Shown in pieces: positions 10,790 to 29,376 of a stretch of 64,000 nt of DNA. Below the pieces are notes generated by a model. The model ran no database searches, was not told where the DNA came from, and saw only the letters and a program-made list of their open reading frames with translations. The translations under genes were made by a program, and so were the position numbers. The first letter of the stretch is position 1; every line of letters starts with the position of its first letter. Origin of the DNA: Gimesia aquarii (GTDB lineage: Bacteria > Planctomycetota > Planctomycetia > Planctomycetales > Planctomycetaceae); contig NZ_CP037422.1 in NCBI RefSeq assembly GCF_007748175.1, forward strand, positions 3,602,020 through 3,666,019, in the 5' to 3' direction.

Positions 10790-11869
10790 CTATTTTTCCC
10801 CAGGCATCGTTTTACCGGTCAGATTGTAAACATAGGCCATGATCTCGACAAACACTTCATATAACTCAAAGGGAATTTCCTGACCGGGTTTAATATCACG
10901 ATACATCTGCCGTGCCAGTGCTTTGCGTTCGATAATTGGAATTCCATGCTCATTTGCAATTTTTCGAATCTGAAATGCGATTTCACCGGCCCCTTTGGCA
11001 ACCACAACCGGTGCAGGCATTGATTCAGGATCGTACTTGATCGCAACTGAAATATGTGTTGGATTAGTGATGACCACATCTGCGCTTTCTACTTTGGAAA
11101 GCTCTTGAGACATCGCCAGCTTCCGATGTGCCTCTTTACGTCGTTGACGAATTAGGGGATCACCTTCCATGGATTTCATCTCTTCGCGGAGTTCCTGCTT
11201 GCTCATCATCAGGTCTTTTTCATGCTTCCATTTCTGAAATGCGAAATCCAGTCCCCCTAAAATGATTAAGGCTAAAGCGAGCAGTACCCCCAACTCAACC
11301 GATGCAATAAAAATATCATGCATGATGGTTTCCGGAGCGGCTCCCATTAAAGCCAGAAAGTTAGGAAACATGATATAACTAAACCAGATTGCAATCAAAA
11401 CCAGCAAAAAAATCTTACCAAGACTGATGCCGAGTTTGACCAATCCACGAATGGAAAGAATGCGTTTGGCCCCCTCAATGGGATTGAGCCGCTCCCATTT
11501 GATTTGCAACACATCGGGGGAAACCATAAAACCGACTTGAACAATATTCAAGCAGATGGCAGAGATAAAGAGCGTCAACATAGCTCCTATTGTCCCACCT
11601 AAAAACAATTTGATCACCGCTTCGCAGCGTTCTATTAACATTGCGGGCTCCATTTGCAGCCACATTGGAGCAGTCAATGTAACCTCCATCAGGTCTTTCA
11701 TATTGCTGTTCATAGTGATGGCAAAAAAATAGAGAACAGCGGCAGCGGCCAACATCATGCCAGCCGCATTCAAGTCGGTGCTTTTCGCAATGTTCCCCTT
11801 CTCACGGGCTTCATTGCGCCGGTGATCTGTGGGCAGCTCGGTTTTTTCTCCTGAATCATTCTCTGCCAT
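10790..11869 (-). CDS. flhB: FlhB, flagellar export switch protein
   Basis: 359 aa, full length. The N-terminal membrane domain has four hydrophobic segments. The cytoplasmic domain contains the NPTH autocleavage site (VITNPTHISVAI) followed by the conserved FlhB C-terminal domain (KGAGEIAFQIRKIA; ERKALARQMY). Cleavage between Asn and Pro switches export from rod/hook to filament substrates. It lies 22 bp after fliR as the last gene of the flagellar run. flhA, often the next gene, is absent; a PP2C gene lies downstream instead. Confidence 0.95.
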   Translation of the reverse strand: MAENDSGEKTELPTDHRRNEAREKGNIAKSTDLNAAGMMLAAAAVLYFFAITMNSNMKDLMEVTLTAPMWLQMEPAMLIERCEAVIKLFLGGTIGAMLTLFISAICLNIVQVGFMVSPDVLQIKWERLNPIEGAKRILSIRGLVKLGISLGKIFLLVLIAIWFSYIMFPNFLALMGAAPETIMHDIFIASVELGVLLALALIILGGLDFAFQKWKHEKDLMMSKQELREEMKSMEGDPLIRQRRKEAHRKLAMSQELSKVESADVVITNPTHISVAIKYDPESMPAPVVVAKGAGEIAFQIRKIANEHGIPIIERKALARQMYRDIKPGQEIPFELYEVFVEIMAYVYNLTGKTMPGEK

Positions 11870-11891: not shown

Positions 11892-12881
11892 TTACATAAC
11901 CGTGCTACGACTTAATTGATCTATCGCCATCGGAACAGATTCGATCACGATGTCTGCGACTCCCGTTAAAGTAAATACGAGGACTGCCACACTCACTACC
12001 ACACGAATCGGAAAACCAATTACCAATACATTGATTTGTGGAACTGTGTGCCCCAGGTAGCCCATAGCCAAGGAAACTAGAGCACTAATTGCCAATAGAG
12101 GTGCAGCAACTTTCACCGACAACACTAATGATTGATGCATGATGTTCTGAAGCATATCTAGCGTATTGGTAGATACGATTCCCTCACCCACCGGAAATAT
12201 TTGAAACGTGTCAATCAAAGTCGAAAGCATTAATAGATGACCGTTAATCGGCTCCATGACTAAGAATATCGAAATCCCCACAAAATAAAGAAACTGACCG
12301 CTGAGTGAGGCGTTCATATCAAATCCGGGATTGAATACTTCTCCTAAAGCCATCCCCGCTTGTTGATCAGCCATCTGTCCCGCCATTTGCAGACTTAACA
12401 ATATTATGTAAACGCCCAAGCCCAGTGCAAAACCTAGCGTCAATTCTCCTAAAATCGACCAGATATAATCCAACAATGAAGCTGGCATGTTAACCACAAA
12501 TTTATAGTCATCGACAGTTAATTCCTGTATCCCCTGGCGTCCGGCATTGATAATCAAATTATCAAAGCGATCTTGTAGATGTTCTGGAACTTCATCTTTA
12601 CTCAGCCGCTGATTCTGATCTGCATCGAGCTCATAAAAACCAACAGCCACCTGATCATGCAATGTTGGTGTGATGAGAATCGAAAGACTGAGAATCAATA
12701 ATATGCGTATGTTCGTGGGAAAGATCGGCTGACCGAAAACGGGGCCGATAATCATCAAACCACTAATGCGAACCATCACCAAAGTAAAAGCATAAAACTG
12801 TAACATGGCCCACTGCAAAACCTGGGCTGGAGCCACTTGCAGTAGAGGATTCATCAAGTATTGATCGAGAAGTGCACTCAC
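11892..12881 (-). CDS. fliR: FliR, flagellar export gate protein, with an EF-hand-like insertion
   Basis: 329 aa against a usual length of about 260. GTG start. The N-terminal helices and the core (GLMIIGPVFG; QMAGQMADQQAGMALGEVFNP; VLVIGFPIRVVV) identify FliR, which forms the export gate with FliP and FliQ. The extra length is mostly one insertion at about residues 77-134, between the second hydrophobic segment and the helix starting LLDYIWSILGE. It contains a canonical EF-hand loop at residues 86-97 (DADQNQRLSKDE: D1, D3, N5, E12), a following helix with VPEHLQDRF, and a degenerate second EF-hand (INAGRQGIQELTVDDYKF). This resembles the paired EF-hands of planctomycete secreted proteins. 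Calcium binding is an inference. Confidence 0.93.
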   Translation of the reverse strand: MSALLDQYLMNPLLQVAPAQVLQWAMLQFYAFTLVMVRISGLMIIGPVFGQPIFPTNIRILLILSLSILITPTLHDQVAVGFYELDADQNQRLSKDEVPEHLQDRFDNLIINAGRQGIQELTVDDYKFVVNMPASLLDYIWSILGELTLGFALGLGVYIILLSLQMAGQMADQQAGMALGEVFNPGFDMNASLSGQFLYFVGISIFLVMEPINGHLLMLSTLIDTFQIFPVGEGIVSTNTLDMLQNIMHQSLVLSVKVAAPLLAISALVSLAMGYLGHTVPQINVLVIGFPIRVVVSVAVLVFTLTGVADIVIESVPMAIDQLSRSTVM

Positions 12882-12919: not shown

Positions 12920-13186
12920 TCAGAGGCGAGATGGAATATCTCTTATCAGATTTGTGCTGTATTCCACCATTAATGCAGTAACCCATGGCAATGTATAAAG
13001 AATCGCCAGTACCATCATCACAATTTTAGGAACAAAACTAATTGTTTGATCTTGAATCTGAGTGACTGCCTGTCCGATGCTGATGACTAATCCCACAACG
13101 ACGGCCGTCAACATCACCGGACCACTGACTTCCAGCATAATCAGCAATCCTTCACGTCCCAAATCCAATACCGTTGAAGTGTCCAT
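12920..13186 (-). CDS. fliQ: FliQ, flagellar export gate protein
   Basis: 88 aa, the usual FliQ size, with two long hydrophobic helices. The conserved segment VGLVISIGQAVTQIQDQTISFVP... is characteristic. It assembles with FliP and FliR in the core of the export gate at the MS ring. It is located between fliP and fliR, the common order. AGG lies eight bases before the ATG. Confidence 0.95.
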   Translation of the reverse strand: MDTSTVLDLGREGLLIMLEVSGPVMLTAVVVGLVISIGQAVTQIQDQTISFVPKIVMMVLAILYTLPWVTALMVEYSTNLIRDIPSRL

Positions 13187-13236: not shown

Positions 13237-14202
13237 TCAACCAACGATCCTGACGCTTTCCAGTAACATTCCTACGGTGAGCAGCCAACCATCGATTAAA
13301 ACAAACAAGAGGATTTTAAAAGGCAGCGAAATCAATACTGGAGGAAGCATCATCATCCCCATACTGATCAGGATAGAACTGATGACCATATCAATCACAA
13401 TAAAAGGCAGGTACAATTGAAAACCAATTAGGAAAGCTGTCTTTACTTCGCTCATCATATAGGCTGGTAATAAAACTGTCAGCGGCACTTCATCATAGTC
13501 TTTGGGCGGTTGATATTTTTCCGCCCCCGGAGTTCCGGGAATCGGCTGTTGATACTCCAAAAACATCCAAACCGTATCACTGTTTCCAGTCAACTCAATT
13601 TGATCGCTCATAAATTTCCGCAGAGGTGCAACGGTTTTTTGAAACGCATCTTCCAGAGAAACTGGCTTTTGTTGAGTTTGATTCGTATACGGGACAATTC
13701 CTTCTTCATATGCTTTTTCCCAAATGGGCGCCATCACCATAATTGTCAAAAACAGGCTAAGGGATGTGAGCACCTGATTTGGCGGTAACTGCTGCGTGCC
13801 CAATGCTTGCCGTAATAGCCCGAATACAATGACGAATCGAATAAAACTCGTTGTCATGATGAGAATGGAGGGCGCCAAACTCAGAACCGTCAATAATAAA
13901 AATACTTTCAGAGTCGAATTTAGCCCCTGAGGAGATGTCATCTCTTCGACATTAAAGATCTCAGGAACGCCGGATGGATTGTTTCCTGTGGACTGTTCTG
14001 CTAATGCAGATGGCCCCTGTGCTACTTGTGAATTCTGATTGGCGGCTCCTTGATTTGAGAGTGCCTGATTAACGGCTGTTGACTGAGCTTGCACTGATTC
14101 TGCAACCAGTGTCAGCAAAACTACCACAACACAAATTGCCGCTCGACAAAAAGGAGCAGTAAAAGCAATGGTCCTTATTTGCTGAAGCCACCTTCTAAGC
14201 AT
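13237..14202 (-). CDS. fliP: FliP, flagellar export gate protein
   Basis: 321 aa from the ATG at 14202, chosen over the ATG at 14223 because GGAG lies seven bases upstream of it. Its first codons overlap the end of fliO by 8 bp, which suggests translational coupling. A signal-type hydrophobic stretch (residues about 12-38, ending SVQAQS) is followed by a 45-residue Q/N/S-rich segment, then the FliP core: [44 protein letters not shown], and [21 protein letters not shown]. FliP normally has a cleaved signal peptide; the Q/N/S-rich stretch after it is longer than in E. coli. Confidence 0.95.
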
Positions 14203-15091
14203 GCCCGGACTCCGAACTCTCATTCAGAGATTGTCGAGAGGTATGTAGCAACTTCTGTTGCAGTCGAGAAACAGCGACATCGTAATCACCATGCTCTGGT
14301 GATCTGGAAGATTGTTCGGGTTCGGTACTTACCTTCTGTTTTAAACGGTCCACAGCTCGATCCGGCTTGTTTTGAGTCGACTGAAATAGTTTTAAAAATG
14401 TGGAATTTGAGCGTTCAGCCTGTTCACGTTCCCGACACATACCGGTTATGAGATCGACTTCGACTGGATCTAAAACTTCACTGAGCATTTCGAGACCGGC
14501 GGGCGAAGATCCTAAAATCAAAATTCGGGAACCGCAACGTACAAAATGAATCGTCTGACGTGCATCCAATGGCCTTTTTCCTAGAACTTCCATCACTTCG
14601 CGAGGTAAGTTTTTAGATGCCAGGGGAGAATGTTTCTTAAAAATTTTTGCACAGATCAGAATAATTGAAATTACGACAAATAACGCACCTAATGTTCCCC
14701 AAAGGGAGGGAGATCGTTTTTGTAAGCCATCCCTAACTTGACCATTTGTGTCCTGAGTTTGTCGATCTACAGGCGTAATCGGATTGGAACGTGATATGTT
14801 ATTGTTGACTCTTGTAGAATCAGCTTTGATATCTGTCATCCGTGATGATCGCGAGGCCACCGGCTGAATAGACTGGCTGGAAGTAGATTGAAGCTCTCCC
14901 CTTCCCTGGATTCTTTGTTCGACAACAGGCCGTGACCGAGGTTTATAAGCAGTCGTGTTATTTAAATTTGCTCGTGGCTGACGAAAGCCATTATTTCGCG
15001 CAGACGTACTCACTTCTCCTGACATTGCATTCGAAACACAATGCACACTACAGACTACTATCAGTCCAAATAAGTAGAAAAGTCGAATCAT
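14195..15091 (-). CDS. fliO: FliO-like flagellar export gate assembly protein
   Basis: 298 aa from the ATG at 15091, where AAGGA lies a few bases upstream and a hydrophobic export segment begins at once ([13 protein letters not shown]). The longer open frame would overlap fliN. Residues 25-135 are low-complexity and polar. A transmembrane helix follows ([23 protein letters not shown]), then a FliO-type domain ([31 protein letters not shown]). FliO helps FliP assemble. The position directly before fliP and the 8-bp overlap support the call. The sequence family is poorly conserved, so the name rests on both context and the C-terminal domain. Confidence 0.85.
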
Positions 15092-29061: not shown

Positions 29062-29376
29062 CTACATTTGCATCCGCTGAATCTCATTATAAGCTTCCAG
29101 AAGCTTATTCCGCATCTGCACCATCATTCGCAGAGCAAGATCTGCTTTCTTAATCGAAGAGAAGACTTCCGCCTGTGTAATGTCTTCCCCTAACAATCCC
29201 CGTTCAATCGATTGCTGAGATTGCGCCTGAATCTGATTCACATTTTCCAAAGACTGAAGCATCATATCTTTAAAGGAAACGTCGCTTGCAACGCTATTTG
29301 CAGTATTATCATTGAATCCCACCGGCGGAATTCCGGGTGAAAACATATTGCTTATTTGGTTTATGGAATCAGTCAT
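29062..29376 (-). CDS. fliE: FliE, MS ring-rod junction protein
   Basis: 104 aa. The conserved C-terminal half (FKDMMLQSLENVNQIQAQS; ADLALRMMVQMRNKLLEAYNEIQRMQM, split by a short loop) is diagnostic. FliE is the first exported rod protein and joins the MS ring to FlgB. It lies between flgC and fliF in the widespread flgB-flgC-fliE-fliF order. Confidence 0.95.
   Translation of the reverse strand: MTDSINQISNMFSPGIPPVGFNDNTANSVASDVSFKDMMLQSLENVNQIQAQSQQSIERGLLGEDITQAEVFSSIKKADLALRMMVQMRNKLLEAYNEIQRMQM

Follow-up and report, generated by a model that had tools for sequence, protein, structure and literature searches.

According to excerpts from structural studies, the export gate complex of the flagellum sits above the inner membrane (PMC6593402), and how the outer end of the gate opens is a current question (PMC12403130). 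In the closed periplasmic gate of Salmonella, the R-loop of FliR (residues 55-68) projects into the pore, clashes with the first FliE and is proposed to block premature secretion; FliE docks on FliP and FliR, and the mature N-terminus of FliP makes the beta-cap (PMC12403130). Parts of FliP and FliR are structurally alike, residues 64-100 and 173-245 of FliP matching residues 18-55 and 71-155 of FliR (PMC8239009).

Here we analyzed the FliR encoded in a 64,000-nucleotide stretch of the Gimesia aquarii genome (7.2 Mb, one contig), hereafter called the window. Few parts of flagella and injectisomes are as conserved as the FliPQR gate, and a metal-binding module in its core would be the first that we know of. 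Searches of titles and abstract openings in the open-licence literature gave, among the matches listed, neither such a core-gate module nor a report of a FliR with an EF-hand domain. The EF-hand FliR described below is a FliR variant that was not found in these literature listings.

The fliR gene and the position of its insert

The window contains fliP, fliQ, fliR and flhB in succession on the minus strand (Table 1). The product of fliR belongs to the FliR/Bac_export_1 family, as indicated by its PF01311 score of 155.2 bits (cut-off 27.8) and by its neighbors FliP, FliQ and FlhB. Its best NCBIfam match is TIGR01400 (fliR; E 1.1e-40), despite a score of 139.9 bits that is below the cut-off of 168.6, and its best PDB matches are FliR as well, including a solved chain of 264 aa. 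The FliQ-like C-terminal half was recognized by a weak PF01313 match (residues 246-309, E 0.02, 15.2 bits against a cut-off of 25), and the alignment with the solved FliR extends to residue 320 of the window FliR and thereby covers this half. Six FliR loci of Gimesia and other Planctomycetaceae/Planctomycetota assemblies are 83-91% identical to the window FliR. In addition, the FliP of the window has 109 residues ahead of its Pfam domain, which exceeds the needs of a signal peptide; given the role of the Salmonella FliP N-terminus in the beta-cap, the FliP side of the gate tip may likewise be larger.

Table 1 Features of the export-gate region in the window (position 1 is the first nucleotide of the window)
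Feature	Coordinates	Strand	Basis or remark
flhB, downstream partner	10790..11869	minus	PF01312 E 1.2e-111
fliR, export-gate protein with insert	11892..12881	minus	GTG start, 329 aa; PF01311 E 2.7e-45
EF-hand-type insert, FliR residues 76-134, between TM2 and TM3 (R-loop position)	12480..12656	minus	alignments
Second-hand end ELTVDDYKF, residues 120-128, without Ca2+ ligands	12498..12524	minus	relatives' inserts
Stretch after the loop, VPEHLQDRFDNLIINAG, residues 98-114, putative exit helix	12540..12590	minus	P99 nearly invariant
EF-hand loop DADQNQRLSKDE, FliR residues 86-97	12591..12626	minus	strict motif
fliQ, upstream partner	12920..13186	minus	PF01313 E 7.2e-26
fliP, upstream partner	13237..14223	minus	PF00813 E 5.6e-72
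FliE domain, the genome's one FliE match	29065..29304 (G000:C1:3631084-3631323)	minus	PF02049 E 5.6e-20

An earlier note on this DNA had judged FliR to be about 60 residues longer than usual, in agreement with the insert of about 58 residues that we found between TM2 and TM3. The alignment with the solved Salmonella-type chain breaks at residue 75 of the window FliR and resumes at residue 136, the corresponding break on the solved chain running from residue 59 to 67 with the single sequence and from 64 to 68 with the profile. On the side of the profile, which was made from 57 long relatives, the break against the same chain runs from position 80 to 137. As aligned, the insert falls at the R-loop, i.e. 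the TM2-TM3 position, which appears to fit the gating idea of the earlier note better than that note knew, and by analogy with the Salmonella structure the putative site should face the periplasm. Of the interval 12455-12653 given earlier for the EF-hand pair, one end lies within a few residues of the insert found here, but the other reaches about 8 residues too far.

Occurrence, conservation and kinship of the EF-hand motif

A FliR match was obtained in 141 of the 170 genomes of the family (Planctomycetaceae), and the search of the order spanned the same 170 genomes. Among the matches listed, the FliR places read comprised 30 loci, the window's own gene, 80 places and 39 further ones. The 117 loci of the first set were reduced to 110 distinct sequences by merging seven loci with identical sequences; 57 of these, the window's own included, have a long TM2-TM3 segment and 53 a short one. 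The strict EF motif, defined as D-x-[DN]-x-[DN]-x-x-hydrophobic-x-x-x-E, is present in 54/57 long FliR (all but L093, L106 and L116) and in 0/53 short ones. With two of the 39 further loci (L224 and L225), the strict loop occurs in 56 distinct FliR from 27 genus codes (29 labels, two of them counted with the window's genus) of one planctomycete family. The locus L232, which is cut by a contig end, and its genome G070 do not enter the counts of EF hands and FliE.

Outside the family, the motif was found in 0/63 fetched FliR of the class, and among the matches listed in the class and phylum samples no FliR place exceeded 741 bases, compared with about 850 for EF-bearing FliR. In the samples searched, the EF insert is confined to one FliR lineage. 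In the trees, which were built without the insert columns and most Gimesia rows and have weak inner support, the EF clade excludes several EF-less lineages, which may therefore never have gained the domain. An insert that was absent or random in close relatives had been named earlier as evidence against an EF hand; in those relatives the insert is present with its EF motif kept, and the reading was not refuted.

Two FliR of the same genus code are related, L004 (G101) and L030 (G102). The latter has the EF hand and FliE and flagellin in its genome; the only possible trace of it in L004 is a short stretch (LGFDRLAAG), and searches of G101 gave neither FliE nor flagellin. Four EF-less FliR of the same family (L194, L195, L204 and L205) carry unrelated long TM2-TM3 loops, with 73-94 residues in the compared segment; the same segment has 44-59 residues in the 63 class loci.

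In the window FliR the strict motif is matched by residues 86-97. The PROSITE EF-hand pattern, in the form used here, also fits this loop, including its Gln at position 6, which that form allows. Shuffling rarely produced either motif: the strict motif was found in 38/38 diverse inserts versus 59/76000 shuffled inserts, and this form of the PROSITE pattern in 36/57 long FliR versus 207/200000 shuffles of the window insert. A chance origin of the motif was rejected on these grounds. In EF hands position 6 is usually Gly, which occurs in 21/38 inserts and 24/56 sequences but is Gln in the window; because this Gly is often missing, the Ca2+ affinity may be low. The second hand of the window FliR lacks ligand positions 1, 3 and 5, and the second half of the insert keeps, in 38/38 inserts, a hydrophobic residue followed five positions on by an aromatic residue or Leu, as would be expected of a ligand-less partner hand. 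The earlier description of a full EF-hand loop with a decayed second hand in FliR is supported. The Pfam EF-hand models gave no match on the window FliR at E up to 10, a range in which most matches above about 0.1 are lost to the HMMER filters. The best of these models, EF-hand_6, matched 17/57 long FliR weakly (best E 0.0034), and none of them was listed for the 53 short FliR. The EF identity of the window copy, as read from sequence, rests on the motif and on the family of relatives. In dockerin-type loops position 12 is Asp, and a loop of this type was rejected because position 12 is Glu in 38/38 inserts.

Outside the window's genus, the 38 diverse inserts are 17-42% identical to the window's. 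In their alignment, which was made blind to the motif, the invariant columns are limited to EF positions 1 and 12 (0 bits of entropy each), and positions 5 (0.74), 8 (0.79) and 3 (0.83) are nearly fixed. Positions 2, 4, 6, 7, 9, 10 and 11 have 2.0-3.2 bits; positions 2, 4, 7, 10 and 11 are free, and positions 6 and 9 are also variable, the latter, usually an indirect ligand, having 2.49 bits. Correspondingly, at least 90% of the 57 rows of the long-FliR alignment agree at D86, E97 and P99, among other columns. Within the genus (16 sequences), pN/pS was 0.044 for the five ligand positions, 0.241 for six other loop positions, 0.213 across the insert and 0.109 across the whole protein, values that are meaningful only as a contrast since silent change is near saturation in the genus. 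Relative to silent change, amino-acid change at the ligand positions is about 1/5 of that at the six other loop positions. These data indicate that purifying selection acts on the ligand positions.

When compared with the PDB, the insert profile retrieved 455 sequences at E up to 1, of which the 60 listed are EF-hand proteins by name, and in the three alignments examined the EF-hand loops are in register with the insert. The best chain was 2m7n with a whole-chain E of 6.1e-12, a value that sums four hands (single-stretch E-values 0.23 to 36), and calmodulins reached about 1e-6, also for whole chains. In the window's own genome the profile found, after FliR, one protein with several EF hands of the same layout (E 3.1e-8, 4.8e-7 and 5.1e-7), and then others. 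The resemblance to secreted planctomycete EF-hand proteins that had been stated earlier was thereby recovered from the genome itself, the secretion of these proteins being judged from their N-termini. The profile matches support the view that the insert was recruited from the EF-hand repertoire of the genome or shares a common origin with it. The profile also found L186, with a C-terminal EF-hand pair at G000:C1:968003-968131; it is HlyD-like by the look of its sequence and represents another envelope protein carrying an EF-hand module.

FliE, flagellin and second FliR lineages

FliE was looked for in 44 plus 35 chosen genomes, and the counts are limited to those whose FliR groups with the main flagellar lineage of the trees. 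A FliE match was obtained in 33/33 EF-bearing versus 14/45 EF-less main-lineage genomes (Fisher 6e-11, with kinship ignored), and flagellin in 33/33 versus 16/45 (4/13 and 12/32). Twelve of the 14 EF-less genomes with FliE carry a further FliR that belongs to the short clade. When these 12 are set aside, which credits their FliE to the other system by assumption, two EF-less genomes with FliE remain, G086 and G115. Both combine FliE and flagellin with a single, insert-less FliR match, indicating that a planctomycete flagellum can do without it. Among phylogenetically independent pairs (44 genomes), EF hand and FliE occur together in about 3/3 supported pairs and in none the opposite way (sign test p 0.25). 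The link to a working flagellum is consistent in these pairs but may reflect descent.

Neither FliE nor flagellin was found in 29/45 EF-less main-lineage genomes (for example G103, G106, G109-G112, G114, G136, G137, G141, G143, G145, G146, G148, G101, G084, G052 and G163), which may have an export gate but no flagellum, or may be incompletely assembled.

FliE lies 16.7-18.2 kb from the EF-bearing FliR in 8/9 genomes and 31 kb from it in the ninth, these nine having been chosen because the two genes are close on one contig. The distance is about 554 and 133 kb in G089 and G091, respectively, each of them a single-contig genome, and in many other genomes FliE and the EF-bearing FliR are on different contigs.

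Many Planctomycetaceae genomes also carry a short-loop FliR of another lineage (L013, L015, L017-L019, L021, L023, L024, L026-L028, L057, L062, L074 and others). In three genomes, G107, G088 and G060, FliE and a short FliR share a contig and are 5-7 kb apart; in G107 and G088 this contig also encodes flagellin. Owing to this closeness to FliE, the short FliR of these three genomes looks more like a component of a second type of flagellar system than of an injectisome, and the assignment of the short-loop clade as a whole to non-flagellar secretion was rejected. Within this material L002 scores above the SctT cut-off, and L003 and L012 group with it; these three may serve non-flagellar secretion.

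Possible roles of the insert in the export gate

We favor, with a probability of about 0.5, a reading in which a putative single Ca2+ site would fold an enlarged R-loop and hold it as a cap at the gate exit, in a mainly structural role. An EF-hand pair resembling those of secreted proteins of these bacteria would have been inserted into the R-loop of the FliR of Planctomycetaceae, where TM2 and TM3 are joined at the periplasmic exit of the channel formed by FliPQR. The first hand keeps all Ca2+ ligand positions, and the second keeps only the hydrophobic and aromatic positions that could pack against the first. With the loop presumably facing the periplasm, Ca2+, which is plentiful outside the cytoplasm, would fill the single site, so that the loop would fold only once it is across the membrane. 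The rigid module might then act as a lid or collar beside the beta-cap and hold the R-loop until FliE and the rod dock. The site would mainly provide folding and stability of the gate tip and not a reversible switch; a constantly filled structural site seems likelier than a switch because periplasmic Ca2+ should follow the level outside.

A single active hand lacking a known target helix is more typical of structural sites, and injectisomes that respond to Ca2+ exist. The two facts pull in opposite directions when a regulatory role is considered, in which Ca2+ would move the R-loop between a plugged and an open state and external Ca2+ would set rod/hook export or FliE docking. Besides the known Ca2+-responding systems, the strong constraint on the ligand positions speaks for such a gate, as does the frequent loss of Gly6 if it means a low-affinity site tuned to millimolar Ca2+, and the insert sits in the very loop proposed to block premature secretion in Salmonella (PMC12403130). 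However, marine periplasmic Ca2+ should be steady and high, which would keep the site filled, and we regard this regulatory role as rather unlikely. Similarly doubtful is a calcium lock, in which the R-loop, as an EF-hand lobe unfolded in the low-calcium cytoplasm, would shut over the pore upon binding outside Ca2+ until FliE displaced the lobe, so that calcium would license the start of the flagellum. A comparably tentative standing is given to the possibility that the EF-hand pair binds FliE, the MS-ring collar or a lineage-specific periplasmic protein, with Ca2+ only maintaining the fold. The presence of FliE in all EF-bearing genomes and in a minority of EF-less ones, most of which have a second FliR, is in its favor, as is the spacing of 16.7-18.2 kb between the two genes in most of the genomes picked for closeness. 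It is weakened by the ordinary length of the window's FliE, whose open frame has 116 aa, by the large distances or different contigs found elsewhere, and by G086 and G115, which have FliE without the insert. The estimates for the structural cap, the calcium-responsive gate and the docking module overlap.

Two further explanations were considered. The loop might simply accept inserts, the EF hand being a neutral remnant, as could be suggested by the other long loops of the four EF-less FliR of the family and by the three long FliR that lack the motif. The invariance of D1 and E12 in 38 diverse inserts and the low pN/pS at the ligand positions make such a tolerated passenger very improbable. The insert lies where FliP has residues 100-173 in its structurally alike half (PMC8239009), and it might accordingly be a leftover or copy of the FliP periplasmic domain instead of an EF hand. 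This hardly deserves consideration and was rejected, since a comparison of the insert profile with the window FliP (one sequence) showed no similarity (probability 0.2 of 100, 4 columns), while EF-hand proteins match the inserts at the E-value given above.

A family with a putative metal-site module in the supposed blocking loop would offer a natural variant of the gate in which this loop can be followed, removed or titrated with an ion. The insert shares with the EF-hand proteins L182, L189 and L186 of the same genome the layout LDxNxDGxxxxDE(V/L)P followed by a second hand, but those proteins keep the ligands in both hands and carry several copies or a C-terminal pair. With calmodulin, the Entamoeba CaBP 2m7n and calerythrin it has in common the 12-residue loop with D1, [DN]3, [DN]5, a hydrophobic position 8 and E12, as well as a hydrophobic and an aromatic position in the half that follows. 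In contrast to them, the second hand of the FliR insert is ligand-less, Gly6 is often gone, and the module forms part of a membrane protein in the export gate. The R-plug of FliR (residues 106-120 in Salmonella) is likewise a part of FliR that seals the channel (PMC8239009), but it is a different loop inside the channel, and the insert lies outside it. A further close counterpart is Salmonella FliR itself (PDB 9k29, 6r69 and 8wkk), a member of the same family with a loop at the same TM2-TM3 position, which is short there and about 58 residues longer, with an EF-hand loop, here.
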